From Flavobacteriales bacterium (GTDB taxonomy: Bacteria > Bacteroidota > Bacteroidia > Flavobacteriales_G > Salibacteraceae), in contig JABJJW010000012.1 of assembly GCA_018660685.1 (NCBI GenBank), forward strand, positions 62,001-126,000: a DNA stretch of 64,000 bases, given 5' to 3'. Positions within the stretch are counted from its first letter, which is position 1. Each line of letters begins with the position of its first letter. Under the pieces are notes generated by a model. It worked only from the letters and a program-made list of their open reading frames with translations, ran no database searches and was not told the origin of the DNA. Shown here in pieces: positions 25,585 to 34,205 of this stretch. The translations under genes and the position numbers were made by a program.

Positions 25585-28503
25585 ATGACAAGAAGGTTTT
25601 ATCGTAATTCACTCACACTCGTCGGGAGCCTGCTTGCCATTGTTTTCATTTCTGGAAACCCGGTAACTGACGCCTTTGATCGAGAGCATCCGTTCTCACC
25701 AATTAGTGTTGACGCTGCGGATAGTCTCCTAGCCATTCTTTCGCTCGATGAAAAGATTGCTCAAACTTTTGTTCTGAGCAAAAATGAATCGAGTCGCTTG
25801 ACGCCTTCAGGTTTTATTTTGGGACTAGATGAAATCATTCAACCAGGAGTAAACAAGTTCCCCGTTCCTCTTTTCATTGGAATGGATATGATGAATGATA
25901 AGGAAAGCAGAGTAAGACTTCAGATTCCGAATCAAATTGCCCTTTCCTCGACTGGTGATCCGCGATTAATTCACGACTATGCGAAGGAACTTGGGATGCA
26001 ATTGCAAAATGGTGGTTACAATTTCGTGCTGGGCCCCGCACTCGATGTGGAGGTGAACGAAAACGACAATTCAATTCTTGATCAATCATTTGGTGAGGAC
26101 AGAGATGTGGTAACGGAGTCAGCTCTGACTTACGTCAAAGGCATGCGTTCTTCTGGCGTGATTTGCGTGGCCGGTAGCTTTCCGGGAATTGGGATGGCAC
26201 AACAATTAGTGCGAAATTCAAATCCAACGCTGTATTCAAGCCCTCCTGAATTAATTCATCGAGATCTCGTTCCGTTCAAGGCTTTGGTAAACAGTGGTGC
26301 TCAATCGATTCTCTTGGCCAATGTTCACGCTCCAGCAATCGACGCCCAGCAAGAAAGGCTTGTATCAAATTCGGGAAAAGCACATGAATTACTTGAAGAC
26401 AAACTTGGTTATCATGGCTTAAAATGGGTTGATCTCCGAAATCCACAAGGTGATCAAGCCTATAAAAAAATGCTCGAAGCCTCACTCATTGCTGGAAATG
26501 ATGTCATTGTCGTAAATGAAGATTTGGAGAAGCACGTCAAAATTGTAAAATCCCTAATCAAAAAAGGAAAGCTGAGCGAAGAGAAGATTAATCAGCGATG
26601 TAAGCGAATTCTCCAATCAAAACTTTGGTTGAAACGGAATGAACCAGAAATGATATCTGTAGCTGAAAAAGCAGATTCTAACCTGCTGCTATTAAAATCA
26701 CGACAGGTGATCGAGAAGTCATTTGCCCTAGCGAGAAACCGAAATAACACACTACCTCTGATGAGGCTGGACACAAGCAGAATCGCAGTCATTAAGGTAG
26801 GTGAAGAGGACAACACTGATCTTGAGTATTTGGTTCAGAGATATGCCCCGGCGGAGGTGTTCAATTTGGAGTTTGCATCTCTAGAGGATGATTTTACAGA
26901 ATTTGAAAGACGAAGCAACGAATTCAATTTGGTGCTCCTCATGATTGACGAGACACAGGAAAAGCTCGCCAGGAAACAATTTGGAATGACAGAACACGCG
27001 CAATCTGTGATTGAACGCGTTGCGAATACTGTCAATACTGTCTTGATTTGGAACGGCAATGAGAAAGCCCTGAGAAACCTAGGAGAGATTAAAAAGCTTC
27101 ATACCATTATTGTGGGCCATCAACCACTTAAGTGGACAGACGACTTAGCCATTCAAGCCTTTTTTGGAGGTCGGGAGATCAATGGTCGGTTGCGAAGAAA
27201 TGTCAACGAAGAAATCAATAAGGACCTTGCTCTTTCTTCACCAAAAACACGGTTGGGATATGGACTTCCTGAGGAAGTCGGCATCTCATCCGAAGATCTC
27301 AAAGTCATTAACCAAATCGCCCAGAAAGGAATTGAAGCCAAGGCCTATCCAGGCGCCCAAGTTTGGTTTGCGAAAGATGGCATCGTCGTTATTAACGGAG
27401 CGTTCGGCCATCATACTTATCAAGAAGAACGAGCAGTTTCAATCAGTGACATCTACGACATTGCGTCGATTACGAAAATCAGCAGCAGCGTTGCCGCCTT
27501 GATGAAGCTGACCGATGTTGGGAGCTTCAAACTCGATGACAACTTGTGCGACTACATCGGTGACATGGTTGATACGACGGCATACATGAATATGAACCTT
27601 CGTGAGATGCTGGCACATCAAGGAGGACTCACCCCATTCATTCCTTTCTATGCCAATACCTTAACCAAGGGTGTACCGCGATATGACGTCTACAGTCTTG
27701 CTCAATCCGACCTTTATCCTACCCGAGTAGCTCGAGAGATTTACATCAAGAAAGACTACCGAAAGGAGATTTACCAGCAAATTCTCAATCACAAGGTTTC
27801 GAGTAAGAAGAAGTATAGATATAGTGATGTGGGCTACTATTTCACCCAAGAGATCATCGAAAGGCTGTCTAAGACCACCCTTGACAATTTTGTAGATAGC
27901 ACCTACTATCGACCGCTAGGACTGACAACCATGGGGTATCATCCACTGAACAGATTTCCGAAAGAACGAATCACCCCAACGGAATTTGATCGATCATTCC
28001 GTCACCAGTTGGTCCACGGCGATGTCCATGATCCTGGCGCAGCAATGATGGGAGGTGTTGCTGGACATGCAGGTATTTTCTCGAACGCCAATGATCTTGG
28101 CATTCTTATGCAGATGTACATGAACGAAGGTGAGTATGGTTACGAGCATTATCTCAATCCTGAAACACTGAAAGACTTCATTAAATGCCAATTCTGTGAT
28201 AACGATAACCGTCGAGGTGCAGGATTTGATAAACCGCTACGAGATGGCGGGAATGGTCCATCTTGTGGATGTACTCATGTAGAGGCCTTCGGTCATCAAG
28301 GATTCACTGGAGCGGTGACTTGGGCTGATCCTCAGGAACATGTTGTGTACGTATTCCTTTCGAACAGAATATATCCCACTGCCAACAACAAGAAGTTGCT
28401 CGAATTGAACATCCGCACGGATATTCAAGAGGCGTTTTACAAAGCAATCTCAAAGAGTTCACCTTTGGCCAATGAGCGAACAGAACAATCCACCCAGAAT
28501 TAA
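25585..28503 (+). CDS. GH3-like domain fused to beta-lactamase-type serine hydrolase
   Basis: A 972-residue exported protein. Signal anchor (9-23); GH3/NagZ-like domain (about 40-350); linker/second GH3-like domain (about 370-545); class C beta-lactamase-like domain (about 565-960). In the serine hydrolase the triad is intact: S628-I-T-K631, a Y-S-D motif near residue 750 and H-Q-G near 910. In the GH3 part, Asp283 (nucleophile position) is kept, but the usual A-K-H-F-P-G is A-G-S-F-P-G (196-201) and the following D-S-H is absent, so hexosaminidase activity is doubtful. The fusion is known in Bacteroidota and is expected to act on peptidoglycan fragments in the periplasm. Confidence 0.9.
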   Translation: MTRRFYRNSLTLVGSLLAIVFISGNPVTDAFDREHPFSPISVDAADSLLAILSLDEKIAQTFVLSKNESSRLTPSGFILGLDEIIQPGVNKFPVPLFIGMDMMNDKESRVRLQIPNQIALSSTGDPRLIHDYAKELGMQLQNGGYNFVLGPALDVEVNENDNSILDQSFGEDRDVVTESALTYVKGMRSSGVICVAGSFPGIGMAQQLVRNSNPTLYSSPPELIHRDLVPFKALVNSGAQSILLANVHAPAIDAQQERLVSNSGKAHELLEDKLGYHGLKWVDLRNPQGDQAYKKMLEASLIAGNDVIVVNEDLEKHVKIVKSLIKKGKLSEEKINQRCKRILQSKLWLKRNEPEMISVAEKADSNLLLLKSRQVIEKSFALARNRNNTLPLMRLDTSRIAVIKVGEEDNTDLEYLVQRYAPAEVFNLEFASLEDDFTEFERRSNEFNLVLLMIDETQEKLARKQFGMTEHAQSVIERVANTVNTVLIWNGNEKALRNLGEIKKLHTIIVGHQPLKWTDDLAIQAFFGGREINGRLRRNVNEEINKDLALSSPKTRLGYGLPEEVGISSEDLKVINQIAQKGIEAKAYPGAQVWFAKDGIVVINGAFGHHTYQEERAVSISDIYDIASITKISSSVAALMKLTDVGSFKLDDNLCDYIGDMVDTTAYMNMNLREMLAHQGGLTPFIPFYANTLTKGVPRYDVYSLAQSDLYPTRVAREIYIKKDYRKEIYQQILNHKVSSKKKYRYSDVGYYFTQEIIERLSKTTLDNFVDSTYYRPLGLTTMGYHPLNRFPKERITPTEFDRSFRHQLVHGDVHDPGAAMMGGVAGHAGIFSNANDLGILMQMYMNEGEYGYEHYLNPETLKDFIKCQFCDNDNRRGAGFDKPLRDGGNGPSCGCTHVEAFGHQGFTGAVTWADPQEHVVYVFLSNRIYPTANNKKLLELNIRTDIQEAFYKAISKSSPLANERTEQSTQN

Positions 28504-28533: not shown

Positions 28534-29652
28534 ATGAAAATCGGAATAGTTTGTTATCCAACTTACGGTGGATCAGGAGTTGTCGCAACGGAACTTGGCA
28601 TAGAAATGGCGGCCGACGGACACGAGGTTCATTTCATCTCCTACTCCAAACCAGTGAGATTGAATGACGGAACGGCGAATGTGTTTTACCACGAAGTCAT
28701 TGTGACGGTCTACCCTCTTTTTGATTATTCGCCCTATGAGCTCGTTCTGACCTCAACCTTAGTGAGGGTCGCGAAAGAAGTTGGATTGGATCTACTGCAT
28801 GTGCACTACGCGATTCCGCATGCATCCGCGGCGTACATGGCAAAATCCATTTTAGCATCCGAAGGAATAACACTCCCGATCGTCTGTACACTTCATGGGA
28901 CAGATATCACATTGGTAGGAAAGGACGCGTCCTTTGAACCAGTGATTTCATTTGCAATCAATAACAGTGACGCTGTGACCGCTGTATCCGCAAGCTTAAA
29001 ATCAGATACGCTACAGTTCTTTCGGGTAAACACTGAAATTGAAGTGATTCCAAACTTCATTAATTTGGAGCGCTACGAGAATCCTAAATCAACTGGCTTA
29101 AGGAAGTCGATAGCCCCGAACGGAGAACATGTAATTGTTCATGTGTCCAACTTTAGAAAGGTCAAAAGAGTTCAGGATGTACTGTCAATTTTTGATGGAA
29201 TCAGAAAAGAAAAAGAAGCCAAGTTGGTCTTGGTTGGCGATGGCCCAGAACTATATGGCATCGAACAATCTTGTAAGGAGATGGGTCTGATCGAGGACGT
29301 ACACTTTCTTGGCAGACAGAAAGAGGTAGAACCACTTTTAATGGAAGGTGATCTCTTCATTCTTCCTTCTACGACGGAGAGTTTTGGACTTGCCGCACTA
29401 GAAGCTATGGCAGCAGGAATGCCCGTTATATCAACAAATGGAGGAGGATTTCCCGAAGTAAATGAACATGGTTTTTCCGGTTTTCTGTCCGATGTTGGCG
29501 ATGTGGAAGAGATGAGTTCAAATGCATTGGTCATTCTCAACGATCTCGAAACTTATAGGGCCAATGCCAAAATACAGGCCGCAAAGTTTGATATTCAAGT
29601 CATTCTTCCGAGGTATACTGACCTCTACGATTCTCTGCTAACTTTAGTATGA
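28534..29652 (+). CDS. bshA: N-acetyl-alpha-D-glucosaminyl L-malate synthase BshA
   Basis: A 372-residue GT4 glycosyltransferase with the BshA start KIGIVCYPTYGGSGVVATELG and HVHYAIPHA, then HGTDITLVG, SNFRKVKRV (donor phosphate site), VGDGPE and the E-SFGLAALEAMA-x-GMPVI region near the C-terminus. It joins UDP-GlcNAc to L-malate, the first step of bacillithiol synthesis. bshB and bshC are not in the window. It starts 30 bp after the GH3 fusion gene and is followed 28 bp later by a Cys-rich lipoprotein gene. Confidence 0.95.
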   Translation: MKIGIVCYPTYGGSGVVATELGIEMAADGHEVHFISYSKPVRLNDGTANVFYHEVIVTVYPLFDYSPYELVLTSTLVRVAKEVGLDLLHVHYAIPHASAAYMAKSILASEGITLPIVCTLHGTDITLVGKDASFEPVISFAINNSDAVTAVSASLKSDTLQFFRVNTEIEVIPNFINLERYENPKSTGLRKSIAPNGEHVIVHVSNFRKVKRVQDVLSIFDGIRKEKEAKLVLVGDGPELYGIEQSCKEMGLIEDVHFLGRQKEVEPLLMEGDLFILPSTTESFGLAALEAMAAGMPVISTNGGGFPEVNEHGFSGFLSDVGDVEEMSSNALVILNDLETYRANAKIQAAKFDIQVILPRYTDLYDSLLTLV

Positions 29653-29680: not shown

Positions 29681-29890
29681 ATGAAACGATTAGCTTTTTT
29701 TACTGCGACTATAGTTGCACTTGGATTCGGCTCTTGCTCTACTTGTTACGAGTGTGATACCGATGCCATACTAACAGATGGAAACAACAATCCCATTGAC
29801 ACAACCACTAATACAGAGGAATTTTGTACTGCAGATTCTGAGGTGGTAACTGCGAAAGAAGAAGATGGTGCAGATTGCAGAGTTCAGTAG
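29681..29890 (+). CDS. Small Cys-rich lipoprotein (family member A)
   Basis: A 69-residue predicted lipoprotein: hydrophobic leader, lipobox FGSC with the lipid Cys at 19, then Cys at +3 and +6 (C-S-T-C-Y-E-C). Two more Cys follow (E-E-F-C and near-terminal D-C). The mature part is about 50 residues and acidic. It belongs to a set of six such proteins in this window. It is 28 bp downstream of bshA on the same strand, and its stop touches the stop of the convergent serine-hydrolase gene. Function unknown; metal binding or disulfide formation are both possible. Confidence 0.78.
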   Translation: MKRLAFFTATIVALGFGSCSTCYECDTDAILTDGNNNPIDTTTNTEEFCTADSEVVTAKEEDGADCRVQ

Positions 29891-30994
29891 TTAGAATAAA
29901 CTCCAAACCTCGTTCTGATTCAAATATCCACCTCGCGTAGCATTGGTTAGGACGATTACGACTTTGTCTTCTTCTTTACTCATCCAGAAGTAGGATCTAA
30001 ATCCTCGCCACCAGCCATTATGAAAGATGATGGTATCCTGTTCCATAGGGCGAAGACGCCAGCCCAACCCATAGAAGTTTCCTGATTTCGTTCTCGAATG
30101 CGGTTGAAATGCTTCATCTAAGTATTCGCTACCGATCACGGTTGGTGATTTCATTTCGAGGTAGAATCGATATAGGTCAAATACCGAACTAACCAATCCT
30201 TTGTCGCCAACAATTCCATCTAAGTAGAAGGCCAGTTTTTCCTTGCCATTTGGATAGTGACCAATAACGTCGTACTCCTCAGAATTCTGGGTGAAAGGGT
30301 TCATAAAATGCGTTGAAAGCATGCCCAATGGTTCAAACAAATTAGCGTATGCATATTCTTCAAAAGGCAGCCCGCTCAACGCCTCTACCATGATAGGAAT
30401 CATTGCAAAGTTGGTGTTACAATAGTCAAATGTTCTATCGGGAGAAAAGTAAAGCGGAACTTGTTCGCACCGCAGGAATTCGTAAAAATCCCTGTTCAAC
30501 ATGAACGAATCTGGATTGTTCCACAAGCTGTCCGTCAAATACATATAGTTTCCTAAACCACTCCGATGAGCGAGCAATTGACGCGTGGTAATTTCGGGGT
30601 ATGGAAAGTCAGGGATGATGTTTTGAACTGCTGTGTCCAAAGAAATATTGTTCTCCTCCAGACACATGAGAAGGATGACTGCTGAGATCGACTTCGTGAG
30701 GGAGGCGAGTTGAAATACATCCTGAAGATTCAGGCTATCCTCTTTTTTGCGCAACCGTTTCAATCCAATTGATCGAGTGTGAATGCTATCATTCCGAGCG
30801 AATAGATAAACTCCGTTGAACTTCCCGTGCTGTGCTAAAGAATCGAAATATGCATCAATAGATCCTGATTCTTCGAAGGCCAAATCAGGGATTGGTTCTG
30901 ATGTCGGTTTAGGTTCCGCATTGGCTTTCTTCTCCTCATCACATGAAGACACCAACGAAATAAGAATTACACAAACGAGAAAGAGTCGGCGCAT
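29891..30994 (-). CDS. Beta-lactamase-family serine hydrolase lipoprotein
   Basis: A 367-residue predicted lipoprotein (lipobox LVSSC, Cys about 17) with a class C beta-lactamase/EstB-like domain: S-L-T-K (in LASLTKSIS), Y-C-N (FDYCNTNF) and H-N-G near the C-terminus (IIFHNGWWRG) are the three catalytic motifs. Such proteins are often esterases or D-peptidases rather than true beta-lactamases. ATG 30994 is chosen: it lies 1 bp after the upstream stop and directly before the leader, while a longer frame to 31087 would run through that gene. It is the last gene of a run with two Cys-rich lipoproteins. Confidence 0.88.
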   Translation of the reverse strand: MRRLFLVCVILISLVSSCDEEKKANAEPKPTSEPIPDLAFEESGSIDAYFDSLAQHGKFNGVYLFARNDSIHTRSIGLKRLRKKEDSLNLQDVFQLASLTKSISAVILLMCLEENNISLDTAVQNIIPDFPYPEITTRQLLAHRSGLGNYMYLTDSLWNNPDSFMLNRDFYEFLRCEQVPLYFSPDRTFDYCNTNFAMIPIMVEALSGLPFEEYAYANLFEPLGMLSTHFMNPFTQNSEEYDVIGHYPNGKEKLAFYLDGIVGDKGLVSSVFDLYRFYLEMKSPTVIGSEYLDEAFQPHSRTKSGNFYGLGWRLRPMEQDTIIFHNGWWRGFRSYFWMSKEEDKVVIVLTNATRGGYLNQNEVWSLF

Positions 30995-30995
30995 T

Positions 30996-31217
30996 TTAGT
31001 TTTCAGAGCAGGTACAAGTGAAGTCAAACATGCCATACTCGGTAGCGCATTGTTCGGCATATGCTTCCAGCGCTTTTTTCGAACCACATTCTTCTGGATA
31101 GGTGTACGCTTCTACCCCATCTTCATCTGATGCCACACATGTTTGGCATTTGTCGCAAGAGCTCAAGGTGAAAAGCAGTGCACCGACGAATGTATATGTG
31201 ATTATCCTCCTTAGCAT
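30996..31217 (-). CDS. Small Cys-rich lipoprotein (family member B)
   Basis: A 73-residue predicted lipoprotein. Leader 1-20, lipobox LSSC; C-D-K-C-Q-T-C gives Cys spaced CX2CX2C from the lipid Cys. Later landmarks are P-E-E-C-G-S, then a helix K-A-L-E-A-Y-A-E-Q-C and a C-terminal T-C-T-C. The P-E-x-C-G ... L-x-A-Y-A-x-x-C ... C-T-C pattern is shared closely with the next upstream gene (member C), so the two are tandem duplicates. One base separates it from the genes on both sides. The ATG at 31217 is the only start that gives a proper leader. Confidence 0.8.
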   Translation of the reverse strand: MLRRIITYTFVGALLFTLSSCDKCQTCVASDEDGVEAYTYPEECGSKKALEAYAEQCATEYGMFDFTCTCSEN

Positions 31218-31218
31218 G

Positions 31219-31482
31219 TTAGTCCTCTTGGCAAGTACATTCATATTCTGCGTCCGAAATGTCTTCAAATTCCACCTTGCATAAATCAGCGTATGCTTTA
31301 AGGTCGCTATTCGTCCCACACACTTCTGGGTATTGGTAATAATCGCTTGACTCTCTTACCTCAACCCCATCTTCGTTGACCTCAGTGGTGATTAGATCTA
31401 CGGAACATACTTCACACCTCTTGCATGACGAAGCGGTCCCTATCAGGAAGATTGTAGCGAGTGTTGAAAGCAGTAATCTCAT
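31219..31482 (-). CDS. Small Cys-rich lipoprotein (family member C)
   Basis: An 87-residue predicted lipoprotein with lipobox ASSC (Cys20) and C-K-R-C-E-V-C. A ~25-residue insertion compared with member B is followed by the same Y-P-E-V-C-G ... L-K-A-Y-A-D-L-C ... E-C-T-C-Q ending. The eight Cys are conserved in position between B and C, which indicates paired disulfides or metal ligation. It starts a tight three-gene run (C, B, serine hydrolase) and lies 41 bp after the MauE-thioredoxin gene. Confidence 0.8.
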   Translation of the reverse strand: MRLLLSTLATIFLIGTASSCKRCEVCSVDLITTEVNEDGVEVRESSDYYQYPEVCGTNSDLKAYADLCKVEFEDISDAEYECTCQED

Positions 31483-31523
31483 AATAACTTAAAAGACGAA
31501 AATGATGAGCACGAAGATAAAAT

Positions 31524-32402
31524 CTAAAGGTCGAGAAGATCACTTAGAAGCACGATGTTTATTTCTTTACCCGTCCACTTGCTCACGACTTCTTCATTCT
31601 CAACCAAAGCGAGTGCTGGGAAAGTTCCATTGATGGCAGCCACTAAAGCTCGTTCGCCTGAGCGGGCAAAAGGAAAGGCTTGAATTCCTGTTTTCTCAAC
31701 GAAGGCTTCCACCTTATCCTCTCCGCCTAGAATGACAAGTCGAAGTCTATCATTGACTTCCGAAGGATCCATTTTAGAGATTAGGGAGGCAAGCTTTTCA
31801 CAATGATGACATTTCGCATACATGATGACATATATCTGCTGATTAGATTCCTTGGAATTCTCGAGGAAGTATGGACTCAGGAGTTCATAATCCAATTGGA
31901 AATCTTCATCTGGTTCAATGGTCGGAATCGGTAGTGCAATTAAAAGGGCTGGAATCGCCAGGATGAATAGAATAGGACTGACTATTCCTACGGACCACTT
32001 TTTTAGTTCTTCCAATTTCCAGAGCAGGTACAAGCCAAAGACAAACATGACTCCATTCTTTGCCAAGCTTGTTGGTCCATCCATCGGAATCAATTCACCA
32101 AAACAGCCACAATCTTCTTCGCCATTTCCGAGGAGTACTTGAGTGATAATGTACGTGGAGAAGAAAACGAGCATTGCTAGGCTCGCTTGCAAATTCAACT
32201 TGGTCTTGAATCCAAAAACGATGGAGGTTCCAATGAAGAACTCAAACAAGATGATCGCTCTAGCCAACCAAGGCACCATTGACCATCCAATTCCTACTTG
32301 TTGAACAAGGATTAATTCAAAGTAATCAAGTGGAAACAGCTTAAGGACAGCCGAAGTAATGAAGAGCAGTCCAAAAAGGATGCGGAGAATTGGGTGAAGC
32401 AT
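31524..32402 (-). CDS. MauE/DoxX-like membrane protein fused to thioredoxin-like domain
   Basis: A 292-residue inner-membrane protein. Residues 1-155 hold four to five membrane segments of the MauE/DoxX type, with the MauE-like D-C-G-C-F-G-E loop (about 97-103) between segments. A short periplasmic linker leads to a thioredoxin-like domain (about 180-290) with a C-H-H-C redox motif in Y-A-K-C-H-H-C-E-K and a cis-Pro-like turn in GTFPALAL. MauE proteins help disulfide formation in methylamine dehydrogenase maturation; here no mau genes exist, so a general periplasmic thiol-redox role is inferred. It lies among Cys-rich lipoproteins, which could be substrates. Start ATG 32402 is 6 bp after a terminator-like hairpin. 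Confidence 0.85.
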   Translation of the reverse strand: MLHPILRILFGLLFITSAVLKLFPLDYFELILVQQVGIGWSMVPWLARAIILFEFFIGTSIVFGFKTKLNLQASLAMLVFFSTYIITQVLLGNGEEDCGCFGELIPMDGPTSLAKNGVMFVFGLYLLWKLEELKKWSVGIVSPILFILAIPALLIALPIPTIEPDEDFQLDYELLSPYFLENSKESNQQIYVIMYAKCHHCEKLASLISKMDPSEVNDRLRLVILGGEDKVEAFVEKTGIQAFPFARSGERALVAAINGTFPALALVENEEVVSKWTGKEINIVLLSDLLDL

Positions 32403-32407
32403 AGTGC

Positions 32408-32435
32408 AAAAAAAAGTCCCGAAATATCGGGACTT
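32408..32435 (-). terminator. Rho-independent terminator (or attenuator) hairpin
   Basis: On the minus strand the stem AAGTCCCGA / TCGGGACTT (9 bp, loop of 4) is followed by eight T residues (32415 to 32408). It lies 23 bp after the stop of lipoprotein D and just before the start codon (32402) of the MauE-thioredoxin gene. This is the clearest intrinsic terminator in the window. Confidence 0.85.
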
Positions 32436-32458
32436 AATATTCTAAAGTTCTCTAGAAC

Positions 32459-32671
32459 TTACTCAAGAGCGCAATCCCAAGAAATTGTTCCAATCGTGTA
32501 CTCATAACCGTTACAAACAGCTTCTGCGTCAGACTTAGTTGACTTAGGGATAGTGTAAGTCAAAGACCCACTACCATCAGACCAAGCACAGCTACACGTG
32601 TAATCTTTCTTACAAGATGAGAACGAAAGAGCGAAAGCTCCTACTGCAAGTCCTAATATTACTTTTTTCAT
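32459..32671 (-). CDS. Small Cys-rich lipoprotein (family member D)
   Basis: A 70-residue predicted lipoprotein: leader 1-19, lipobox FSSC, then C-K-K-D-Y-T-C-S-C. The Cys spacing (CX5CXC) differs from the other members, matching the common Flavobacterial S-C-K-K-D-Y-x-C-x-C type. A later E-A-V-C and a terminal D-C remain. It has its own strong promoter and a terminator immediately after, so it is probably highly expressed as a short mRNA. The ATG at 32671 gives the proper leader. Function unknown. Confidence 0.82.
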   Translation of the reverse strand: MKKVILGLAVGAFALSFSSCKKDYTCSCAWSDGSGSLTYTIPKSTKSDAEAVCNGYEYTIGTISWDCALE

Positions 32672-32699
32672 TTTAATAAGGTTTTGGTTAGCATTCAGA

Positions 32700-32729
32700 C
32701 AAATGTAACGAAGATTGGAATAATCCAAA
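32700..32729 (-). promoter_or_regulatory. Canonical Bacteroidota promoter of lipoprotein D
   Basis: Minus-strand TTTG (32729-32726), 18-bp spacer, TACATTTG (32707-32700): both elements match the -33/-7 consensus with the same spacing as the hslR promoter. The predicted leader is about 23 nt to ATG 32671. Confidence 0.75.
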
Positions 32730-32782: not shown

Positions 32783-33214
32783 ATGGCCAAGCTTTCAAAT
32801 AAGGGTATAGACTACGATATCAAGGTTTTATTGGCCTGGGGTGAGAGTATTTCTGGAAACCAAAAGATAACAGGCTGGTTAACCAAAAATGGATATCCAG
32901 AACTAGGGTTATTCTTTTACGCCCTACGAAATGAGCCAAGGAGTCGTGAGTGGTTGATGGAAAATGGGCATCCCCATCTCCTGGCATTAATCAATGGTAT
33001 TGAGGGTAATGAAGAAGCGAGAAGTTGGTTAGAGAAACACGGCTATGATCTGCTCCACACCATGGCTCTCTCTGGTGATGGAGAGAATGAAGCTCATGAA
33101 AAATTGCTAAAAGCTGATCTAAAGGTGTTTGCTATGCTGGCAAAAAAAATGGAAGCGATTAAGGACGGTATTGATTTAAACAAGGCCGACTTCCATAGAT
33201 TTTATTCTTCCTAG
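32783..33214 (+). CDS. Helical-repeat protein of unknown function
   Basis: A 143-residue cytoplasmic protein that I cannot assign to a family. It holds three clear and one degenerate repeat of about 25 residues, with the core W-L-x-x-x-G-[YH]-x-x-L: GWLTKNGYPELGLFFYA, EWLMENGHPHLLALING and SWLEKHGYDLLHTMAL, then EKLLKADLKVFAMLAK. The pattern suggests stacked helix pairs, as in ankyrin or HEAT-like solenoids, so protein binding is likely. No signal peptide. The stop codon shares CTAG with the stop of the convergent MORN gene. Confidence 0.75.
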   Translation: MAKLSNKGIDYDIKVLLAWGESISGNQKITGWLTKNGYPELGLFFYALRNEPRSREWLMENGHPHLLALINGIEGNEEARSWLEKHGYDLLHTMALSGDGENEAHEKLLKADLKVFAMLAKKMEAIKDGIDLNKADFHRFYSS

Positions 33215-33672
33215 GACGGTGGCGCCTCAACCGCACAATTGGATTTGAACTCTCCTTTGAAAATTTGACCATCTGGATATTTGATGCGCCCTTTTCCATC
33301 CATCTTGCCGTTTTTAAAATCTCCTTTGTACATCTGACCATCAGGCCACTTCATCTGCCCTTTCCCATTGGGTTGATCGTCCTTCCACCTTCCTTCATAC
33401 TCTCGGCCTGAAACCCACTTCATATAACCCTTTCCGTGCCGAAGTCCGTGGTGCCATTTCCCTTCGTAAAAACTGCTATCTGACCAAATCATGGTGCCGC
33501 TCCCTCCCATCTCGCCGCCGTAAATGTCTCCGAAATATTTTGATCCATTCTGCCAATAGACTGTATGGAAGCCATCATAAAGGTCACGCATGTCCTCAGC
33601 GTTCACCTCTTGTGCAGTAATAATTGAATTGACTGCAAAGATTACAAGGATGAGTACTATGTGTTTTTTCAT
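33211..33672 (-). CDS. Secreted MORN-repeat protein
   Basis: A 153-residue exported protein: signal peptide (1-20) then about five MORN repeats of 23 residues, visible as Y-x-G-x-[FW]-x-x-G-x-x-x-G-x-G-x-[MI]-x-[WY] (for example YEGKWHHGLRHGKGYMKW, YKGDFKNGKMDGKGRIKY). MORN repeats form an extended beta sheet that binds protein or lipid. The gene overlaps the upstream head-GIN gene (TAATG). Partner unknown. Confidence 0.88.
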   Translation of the reverse strand: MKKHIVLILVIFAVNSIITAQEVNAEDMRDLYDGFHTVYWQNGSKYFGDIYGGEMGGSGTMIWSDSSFYEGKWHHGLRHGKGYMKWVSGREYEGRWKDDQPNGKGQMKWPDGQMYKGDFKNGKMDGKGRIKYPDGQIFKGEFKSNCAVEAPPS

Positions 33673-34205
33673 TAACGCTTAACCTGTTTTATTTCTCCAG
33701 CGCCCGTTATGGACTCGGAAACCTCAGGGCTGCCAATATAGTTCACTTCACCGGCACCTGTGATACTTACGTCAAGACTCTTTTCAACTCTCACATCAAC
33801 CTCGCCTGCTCCAGTTACACTTACTTCTGCTTCTTCCGTATCAAGATCAAATGCCTCGACATCTACCGCACCGGATACATCAATTTCTTCGATATAGTCC
33901 GTTTCAATTTCAAGTCGCAGTTCATCGGCATCAAAGTATTTGTCTCTTGATCCGATGTGCAATTCTCCGTGATCCACCTTGATCTCAATATGATCGTGGA
34001 TGTTCTCATTTGTAACGACGGTAATACCTGGGTTGTTACTACCGCTAGTCAGCACGACTTCATATACACCACCGATTTGAATTTCTGTAAACTCTGGAAG
34101 ATCATGGCGTTGTTCGGTGACATCTCCTTCGCCCTTGATCCTTGTTCCGCAAGAGATAATTATCAATGCGCTTATGGCAAGTAGAAATAGTGTGGTAAGT
34201 TTCAT
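33672..34205 (-). CDS. Head-GIN domain (DUF2807) lipoprotein
   Basis: A 177-residue predicted lipoprotein (IISC, Cys about 19) with the head-GIN/DUF2807 adhesin-like domain: G-x-G-x-V-x-x-x-x-H-x-L-P-x-F-x-x-I-x-I-x-G-V-Y-E-V at the start, then a beta-helix-like run where S-x-T-G-A-G-E-[VI] recurs three times near the C-terminus (VSVTGAGEVDV, VSITGAGEVNY, SITGAGEIKQ). Such proteins are exported and of unknown ligand. It is co-transcribed with the MORN gene. Confidence 0.88.
   Translation of the reverse strand: MKLTTLFLLAISALIIISCGTRIKGEGDVTEQRHDLPEFTEIQIGGVYEVVLTSGSNNPGITVVTNENIHDHIEIKVDHGELHIGSRDKYFDADELRLEIETDYIEEIDVSGAVDVEAFDLDTEEAEVSVTGAGEVDVRVEKSLDVSITGAGEVNYIGSPEVSESITGAGEIKQVKR

Follow-up and report, generated by a model that had tools for sequence, protein, structure and literature searches.

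Results

The window, by which we mean the whole 64,000-nucleotide stretch of DNA that was analysed, carries in minus-strand order the genes for lipoprotein D (32459..32671, 70 aa), an intrinsic terminator or attenuator (32414..32435), a MauE-thioredoxin fusion protein referred to here as FUS (31524..32402, 292 aa), lipoproteins C (31219..31482, 87 aa) and B (30996..31217, 73 aa) and a PF00144 serine-hydrolase lipoprotein, SH (29891..30994). This order, including the terminator, the serine hydrolase and the CHHC motif of the fusion, was verified in the sequence as the initial annotation had described it, and so were the 1-bp gaps separating C from B (TAA-C-ATG) and B from SH (TAA-A-ATG). For D, the ATG at 32671 was preferred as the start over a TTG near 32728. 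SH passes PF00144 (141.7 bits versus a cut-off of 27, E 4e-41) and displays S-L-T-K, Y-C-N and H-N-G, which we take to be the motifs named for this family. Its gene is convergent with that of lipoprotein A (29681..29890, plus strand, 69 aa), and bshA lies on the far side of the block (28534-29652, plus strand; TIGR03999, 515 bits versus a cut-off of 273.7), where it had been placed previously.

The N-terminal part of FUS is a MauE/DoxX membrane domain (residues 4-128, 32019..32393, minus strand; PF07291, E 1.1e-22, 81.2 bits versus a cut-off of 27) with a loop motif, C98-G99-C100 (32103..32111), that is invariant in the FUS alignment. Residues ~163-292 (31527..31916) are predicted to fold as a ResA/TlpA-like thioredoxin domain with a CHHC active site at residues 198-201 (31800..31811). 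The Pfam Thioredoxin match is weak (14 bits, under the cut-off), and we assign the TlpA/ResA-type fold with its CxxC from structural alignment of the model, in which this domain superimposes on DsbF over 123 residues (Z 13.7, rmsd 3.2) and on ResA over 121 (Z 13.5, rmsd 2.5). The AF2 model and the alignment together show a membrane bundle with a Cys pair fused to a CxxC thioredoxin domain, and from the predicted helices and the positive loops GFKTKLN and KLEELKKW we infer that both Cys motifs face the periplasm.

In a search of genome contigs, the CGC and CxxC motifs were kept in 80/80 FUS loci. L064, the sole FUS-like row that lacks the CxxC, is also without D. Three further rows (L063, L065, L066) have lost the MauE CxC and retain both the thioredoxin CxxC and D, and MauE-poor membrane thioredoxins (L067, L071, L076) also adjoin D-like lipoproteins; these exceptions indicate that the CGC loop is dispensable in some cases.

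By sequence rule, lipoproteins A, B, C and D each have a signal peptide ending in a lipobox Cys, which in D is Cys20, followed by C26-x-C28, C53 and C67. The initial annotation had counted six to eight Cys in these proteins, which holds for mature B and C with seven each, but not for D with five; the fourth lipoprotein, A, has five as well. Besides the lipidated Cys there are thus six in B and C and four in D and A. The mature part of D is modelled by AF2 with a pLDDT of ~93 as strand-strand-helix-strand-strand. None of the four proteins matched a Pfam family, and for D no NCBIfam model scored above its cut-off. Forty of 68 D-type members match the PG1828 family of small lipoproteins (NF050142) at E up to 0.01, but D of the window, with 22 bits against a cut-off of 50 and a match confined to the signal peptide (residues 1-24), is not a member. 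Foldseek found no solved structure matching D at E up to 0.001, and the best VIA-align match had a Z of 4.3, which leaves a solved fold for D possible. Mature-only profiles of A, B/C and D showed no convincing homology to each other (hhalign probability at most 12.8; best whole-sequence match E 2e-4 in a tiny database), and we therefore do not claim their common descent: they share just the lipobox, small size and an even number of Cys.

This even number recurs widely. Among 99 small lipobox ORFs upstream of FUS, collected without a Cys filter, 98 have 2, 4 or 6 Cys besides the lipidated one, and in the single odd row (L095) the lipobox had been placed one Cys too early; among the longer lipoproteins of these loci, 11/28 carry an odd number. 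A larger set of 187 rows, in which some genomes appear twice and the rows from 34 relative loci were pre-filtered at no fewer than 3 Cys, has two odd members, namely L095 and a spurious-looking ORF in L065. In the 2-Cys variants of D, the Cys equivalent to C28 and that equivalent to C53 are absent together. Even Cys numbers would suit disulfide clients, and would also be compatible with metal sites.

To assess how far the pairing of D with FUS extends, we examined 100 relatives, which hold 37 loci with a near-full-length FUS. A D-type gene lies at most 500 bp upstream on the same strand in 30 of these 37, where 0.008 would be expected; the count takes D rows at E up to 1e-6 and drops weaker D and partial FUS rows. 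D is present in 35/37 FUS genomes compared with 10/63 FUS-free genomes, a figure biased upward since the D profile was seeded from FUS neighbours, and as these rows are related, Fisher values are not clean probabilities. A profile-free rule was also used on 69 held-out loci (80 minus 11 whose contigs match those of seed genomes in length): 51 of them have, within 500 bp upstream and on the same strand, an ORF with a lipobox and 4 or more Cys. Such ORFs number 74 in the 64.6 kb lying up to 1 kb upstream of FUS, versus 11 in ~520 kb of other same-strand bins. The remaining 18 held-out loci have no D within 500 bp, three being truncated by a contig end and one (L164) having its D 4.3 kb away; a Chitinophagales-like group has an intact FUS with no adjacent D. 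About half of the D-type matches in FUS genomes (51/103) lie away from FUS.

The co-occurrence beyond this strain that the initial annotation had proposed to check is thus found across Bacteroidota (30/37 and 51/69 loci), and because it holds so far from the window strain, the linkage is not due to chance. Within the genus, conservation covers the entire block of SH, A, B and bshA, as inherited synteny alone would predict, but the view that the neighbourhood carries no functional link is very improbable, as D is retained although FUS identity to the window protein drops to ~20-30%, other neighbours vary while D persists, with no other family recurring in more than 14/80 loci, and the held-out loci contradict it.

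The remaining genes of the block are a genus-level addition. SH lies near FUS in 12/12 loci of the genus and in 0/22 other mapped loci, and bshA, scored within 5 kb of FUS, has the same distribution. SH was therefore rejected as a core partner, and a bacillithiol connection through bshA is unsupported; its linkage looks coincidental, as had been suspected at the outset. As SH, A-C and bshA accompany FUS in the genus only, the core module comprises D and FUS. The proposed tie between the fusion and Cys-rich lipoproteins is supported by the D-FUS linkage and the even Cys counts, but does not extend to the whole operon as a unit.

The terminator between D and FUS consists of a 9-bp stem, a 4-nt loop and a T run, and the spacer folds with -20 kcal/mol (z = -3.98 versus shuffles). 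A terminator occurs at this position in 43/56 linked loci, compared with 29/121 control gene pairs and an expectation of 1.0 from shuffles that preserved single-base composition only. A terminator scan of the whole region was no richer than shuffles (2 versus 3.1), so the assignment rests on place, fold and conservation. A promoter scan of the region gave 6 promoter-like sites versus 6.9 in shuffles.

An excess of D over FUS, as the terminator would maintain, would also fit a lipid-anchored disulfide carrier whose CxC is charged by FUS and which hands disulfides on to envelope proteins. The strict conservation of C-x-C, C53 and C67 in D and the presence of FUS-unlinked D-type copies in the same genomes favour such a role. 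D-type genes nevertheless occur as tandem, diverging copies, up to 4-5 in number, the 2-Cys variants lack the CxC, and A-C have other Cys spacings, all of which is more suggestive of clients and makes a carrier unlikely.

Neither VKOR (PF07884) nor DsbB has a match anywhere in the window genome, and in the 100 relatives they are found in 3 and 1, respectively. VKOR is also absent from the listed structural neighbours of FUS, which is uninformative because the thioredoxin half filled that listing. Several observations speak against an oxidase: the window genome encodes a DsbA-family protein as well as a DsbD-type membrane protein, a potential electron source, and the nearest solved folds of the FUS thioredoxin half belong mostly to ResA/TlpA/CcmG types, many of which act as reductants. 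In TlpA/ScoI-type pathways, thiols are kept reduced for metal binding. FUS could accordingly be a reductase or isomerase that keeps lipoprotein thiols reduced, for instance to bind copper or zinc, and its ResA/TlpA/CcmG/DsbF-like fold, the DsbD-type protein and the four conserved Cys of D, which could make a metal site, are in line with this. However, CPHC and CxHC are DsbA/PDI-type, oxidant-type active sites, and CxHC is present in 103/111 FUS rows (CPHC in 61), some genomes being counted twice. In addition, variants with 2 or 6 Cys, altered in pairs, fit disulfides better than a single metal site, and the mature D consensus has no conserved His or Met. We consider a reductase improbable, while ranking it first among the alternatives.

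Discussion

We propose that FUS is a self-contained putative thiol oxidase for small Cys-rich lipoproteins, which would be its clients, and give this reading a probability of roughly 0.58. Judged from gene neighbourhood and motif conservation, the FUS-D linkage across Bacteroidota suggests a dedicated disulfide-forming system, and disulfide formation by FUS would probably be quinone-linked. The thioredoxin site of FUS would introduce disulfides into a D-type lipoprotein on its departure from the inner membrane, with C26-C67 and C28-C53 as the likeliest bonds, and electrons would pass from this site to the CGC loop and on to quinone, much as DsbA hands them to DsbB or VKOR. Through the terminator, output of the abundant client D could exceed that of the enzyme, and in the window genus the client set may have been enlarged to A, B and C.

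The layout of FUS is reminiscent of VKOR-thioredoxin fusions and of DsbB/DsbA, in which a multi-helix membrane domain with a Cys pair is joined to, or works with, a CPHC/CxHC thioredoxin partner, whereas the membrane part of FUS is MauE/DoxX. The BT_3928 family of Bacteroidota (NF045576) likewise combines a MauE/DoxX domain with a C-terminal domain, but FUS, at 61.5 bits against a cut-off of 250, is not a member. Separately from FUS, the genome encodes a true BT_3928-type paralog of 466 aa (390.8 bits), and no CxxC was seen in the C-terminal part of this paralog. Residues 1-132 of FUS also align with NACHO/TMEM35A, an animal receptor assembly factor (Z 12.0, rmsd 2.3, 114 residues), although a Z below ~13 for helical bundles may mean a common arrangement only.

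MauD is thioredoxin-like, and in the maturation of methylamine dehydrogenase MauE with MauD thus pairs a MauE-family membrane protein with a thioredoxin-like partner, as FUS does in a single fused protein whose client family is unrelated by annotation. A search for the methylamine dehydrogenase light chain gave no match in the window genome, nor did it match any control genome. MauE has been speculated to form the beta-subunit disulfides of methylamine dehydrogenase (van der Palen 1997, cited in PMC7794033), and in Streptomyces RiPP candidates from decRiPPter, mauE, in one case together with mauD, lies next to predicted precursors containing 8 Cys or more (PMC7794033). By analogy, the FUS-D pair might belong to biosynthesis or to a secreted-peptide system, with FUS as the modifying enzyme of Cys-rich precursors. 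The Streptomyces cases differ in phylum, and their precursors are described as RiPP candidates, where the fusion described here adjoins lipoproteins. D-type proteins show clear lipoboxes rather than leader peptides and no further biosynthetic gene recurs at FUS loci, which leaves this reading with little probability. The open-access literature in PMC, outside which most subscription papers lie, yielded nothing on MauE-thioredoxin fusions beside Cys-rich lipoproteins.

Most genomes examined are without DsbB and VKOR, which puts the source of their envelope disulfides in question. It is tempting to speculate that in many such Bacteroidota the missing source of disulfides is a MauE-thioredoxin fusion, with D proteins as FUS-charged carriers to the outer membrane or surface, a scenario that we regard as unlikely. 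The conserved pairing of the enzyme with a proposed client of 70 residues and confidently predicted fold makes the question of the disulfide source directly testable. The linkage to FUS provides a first functional context for a widespread family of small lipoproteins without a Pfam or above-cut-off NCBIfam model, and extends the idea of MauE proteins dedicated to particular Cys-rich partners beyond MauE/MauD and the Streptomyces RiPP candidates.

Gene organization and architecture of the fusion

The genome under study, G000, is a Bacteroidota genome of 2.58 Mb and 96% completeness. On the minus strand of the window, the 70-aa Cys-rich lipoprotein D (32459..32671) is followed by a terminator, the 292-aa MauE-thioredoxin fusion (FUS, 31524..32402), lipoproteins C and B, and a PF00144 serine-hydrolase lipoprotein (SH, 29891..30994), with C, B and SH separated by 1-bp gaps. 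This is the order proposed in the initial annotation, which also correctly placed the bacillithiol gene bshA (28534-29652, plus strand; TIGR03999, 515 bits) on the far side of the block, beyond a fourth small Cys-rich lipoprotein, A, that is convergent with SH. The ends of A and the 367-aa SH directly abut (29890/29891). Glycoside hydrolase family 3 and PF00144 (PBP4B-like) domains are joined in one fusion at 25585-28503, and MORN-repeat and DUF2807 genes lie upstream of D at 33211-34205. Of 12 sister loci, 11 retain the MORN gene, the exception being truncated by a contig end, and most retain the DUF2807 gene.

By profile score, FUS is a MauE-family protein; membership of the BT_3928 family was ruled out by that family's cut-off, and identity as VKOR by the VKOR search. 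G000 also carries a 466-aa BT_3928-type MauE paralog (contig C9:15387-16787; L002:442-1842), the C-terminal part of which has no CxxC. In the AF2 model of FUS (mean pLDDT 85.2), residues 163-292 form a thioredoxin domain matching DsbF (Z 13.7) and ResA (Z 13.5), while residues 1-132 match NACHO/TMEM35A (Z 12.0, rmsd 2.3, 114 residues aligned), which may be no more than a shared arrangement of helices. C98-G99-C100, C198 and C201 are the same in all 74 aligned sequences. A CxHC active site occurs in 103 of 111 rows, with CPHC in 61; it resembles those of DsbA and PDI. Judging by the predicted helices and by the positive loops GFKTKLN and KLEELKKW, the CGC loop and the thioredoxin domain would both lie on the periplasmic side.

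Three FUS-like proteins of the 31-row FUS set (L063, L065, L066) have lost the MauE CxC and kept both the CxxC and a D neighbour; a fourth row, L064, keeps CGC and has neither CxxC nor D. Short membrane thioredoxins of 229-235 aa (L067:5331-6020, L071:3059-3757, L076:4873-5580), matched by the second half of the FUS profile only, look like MauE-poor relatives; they carry CxxC and each adjoins a small Cys-rich lipoprotein, on the opposite strand in L071. The constant partner of D is therefore the thioredoxin CxxC.

Linkage of D and FUS across genomes

The FUS protein query matched 80 of 100 relatives' genomes at E up to 0.001, most matches spanning just the MauE half of longer proteins; a 31-sequence profile search gave 37 near-full-length FUS loci among the matches listed. 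A same-strand D-type gene lies no more than 500 bp upstream in 30 of these 37 (0.008 expected by chance), and 32 have one within 2 kb to either side. None was found within 2 kb in the remaining five (G008, G014, G039, G079, G081); the G008 contig begins inside FUS, and G081 has D-type genes elsewhere in its genome. At E up to 1e-6, D was found in 35/37 FUS genomes versus 10/63 others, and outside the genus in 22/24 versus 10/63, a co-occurrence biased upward because the D profile was seeded from FUS neighbours. Three small Cys-rich lipoproteins stand in a row at L083:4877-5539, in a genome without near-full-length FUS.

A scan for FUS relatives, with one genome per species, yielded at least 547 confirmed stretches. 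The 80 kept are labelled as Bacteroidota lineages, save one designated just "bacterium", and setting aside 11 from seed genomes left 69 held-out loci. A profile-free rule (a same-strand lipobox ORF with 30-110 mature residues and four or more Cys) found a gene within 500 bp upstream of FUS in 51/69, and the D profile in 47/69. The 64.6 kb immediately upstream contain 74 same-strand ORFs passing the rule, versus 11 in about 520 kb of other bins. Co-occurrence of fusion and lipoprotein family across genomes, the check suggested in the initial annotation, thus speaks for the genomic link drawn there. No rule-passing gene was found within 500 bp upstream in 18/69 loci, three of which (L117, L139, L143) have at most 111 bp of upstream sequence; the other 15 retain intact CGC and CxxC motifs in FUS, and nine of them have a [VL]IETFEF motif near the FUS start in common. 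On the FUS tree, the adjacent-D state needs at least seven changes (76 rows with D, 13 without). Every other neighbour family is limited to 14 or fewer of the 80 kept loci.

A stem of at least six pairs with a T run is present in the D-FUS spacer at 43 of 56 linked loci (1.0 expected from shuffles); the control, other same-strand gene pairs of these loci, gave 29 of 121. The terminator is not a feature of the window strain alone. As the spacers are short (median region 113 bp, including 20 bp beyond where the matched range starts), attenuation would be the simplest reading, in which D is produced in surplus and FUS depends on read-through.

The 12 sister loci (L033-L044) all contain SH and A together with bshA and one or more B/C-type lipoproteins; D is upstream in 11, the 12th being interrupted by a contig end. 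In the other 22 mapped loci, neither SH nor bshA has a match within 5 kb. As a unit, the operon therefore holds in part: D with FUS is widespread, whereas SH and bshA are kept at genus level, and it seems that the client set grew and the hydrolase joined the operon in this genus. In all 12 sister loci, SH and A are separated by a gene of about 200-237 aa that is absent from the window; the L033 copy has a LON substrate-binding domain (PF02190, Pfam).

Probable cysteine pairing in the lipoproteins

No variation is seen at the lipidated Cys or at C26, C28, C53 and C67 (window numbering) among 68 D-type proteins, a set selected for five Cys. The AF2 model of mature D (confidence about 93) has the order strand-strand-helix-strand-strand. 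D has no Pfam family and no NCBIfam family above cut-off; A, B and C have the same layout, but homology is not demonstrable. All but two of 187 lipobox ORFs near FUS have two, four or six Cys besides the lipidated one, and the two odd rows look like calling errors. With no Cys filter applied, the number is even in 98/99 upstream lipobox ORFs, while longer lipoproteins of the same loci have an odd number in 11/28. Two-Cys variants retain the equivalents of C26 and C67 but neither of the other two cysteines, pointing to C26-C67 and C28-C53 pairing in D. Such paired cysteines could belong to disulfide clients; in one of the two main rival explanations, D would instead be a disulfide carrier. D-type lipoproteins form tandem arrays around FUS in L052, L053 and L055, some with a C-C pair replacing C-x-C.

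A candidate oxidase and its putative lipoprotein clients

VKOR and DsbB had no match in G000, and among the 100 relatives VKOR was found in three and DsbB in one; both searches gave matches in named controls. With these enzymes absent or rare, the fusion would fit the oxidase place. G000 has one DsbA-family and one DsbD-type protein, and the other main rival takes FUS for a reductase serving a metal site.

Precedents for the kind are MauE with MauD and Streptomyces mauE adjoining Cys-rich precursors (PMC7794033). Searches of the PMC open-access library, which lacks most subscription papers, turned up neither the fused enzyme nor the lipoprotein family, nor their Bacteroidota-wide linkage. The anatomy, the linkage, the even Cys counts and the terminator can be read from sequences and models, whereas the membrane side, the direction in which electrons move, the quinone and the roles of enzyme and client are inferred. 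A CxHC thioredoxin domain joined to a MauE domain that bears a CGC loop would fit an oxidase with D-type lipoproteins as its clients. FUS would then oxidize these lipoproteins and may pass the electrons on to quinone.
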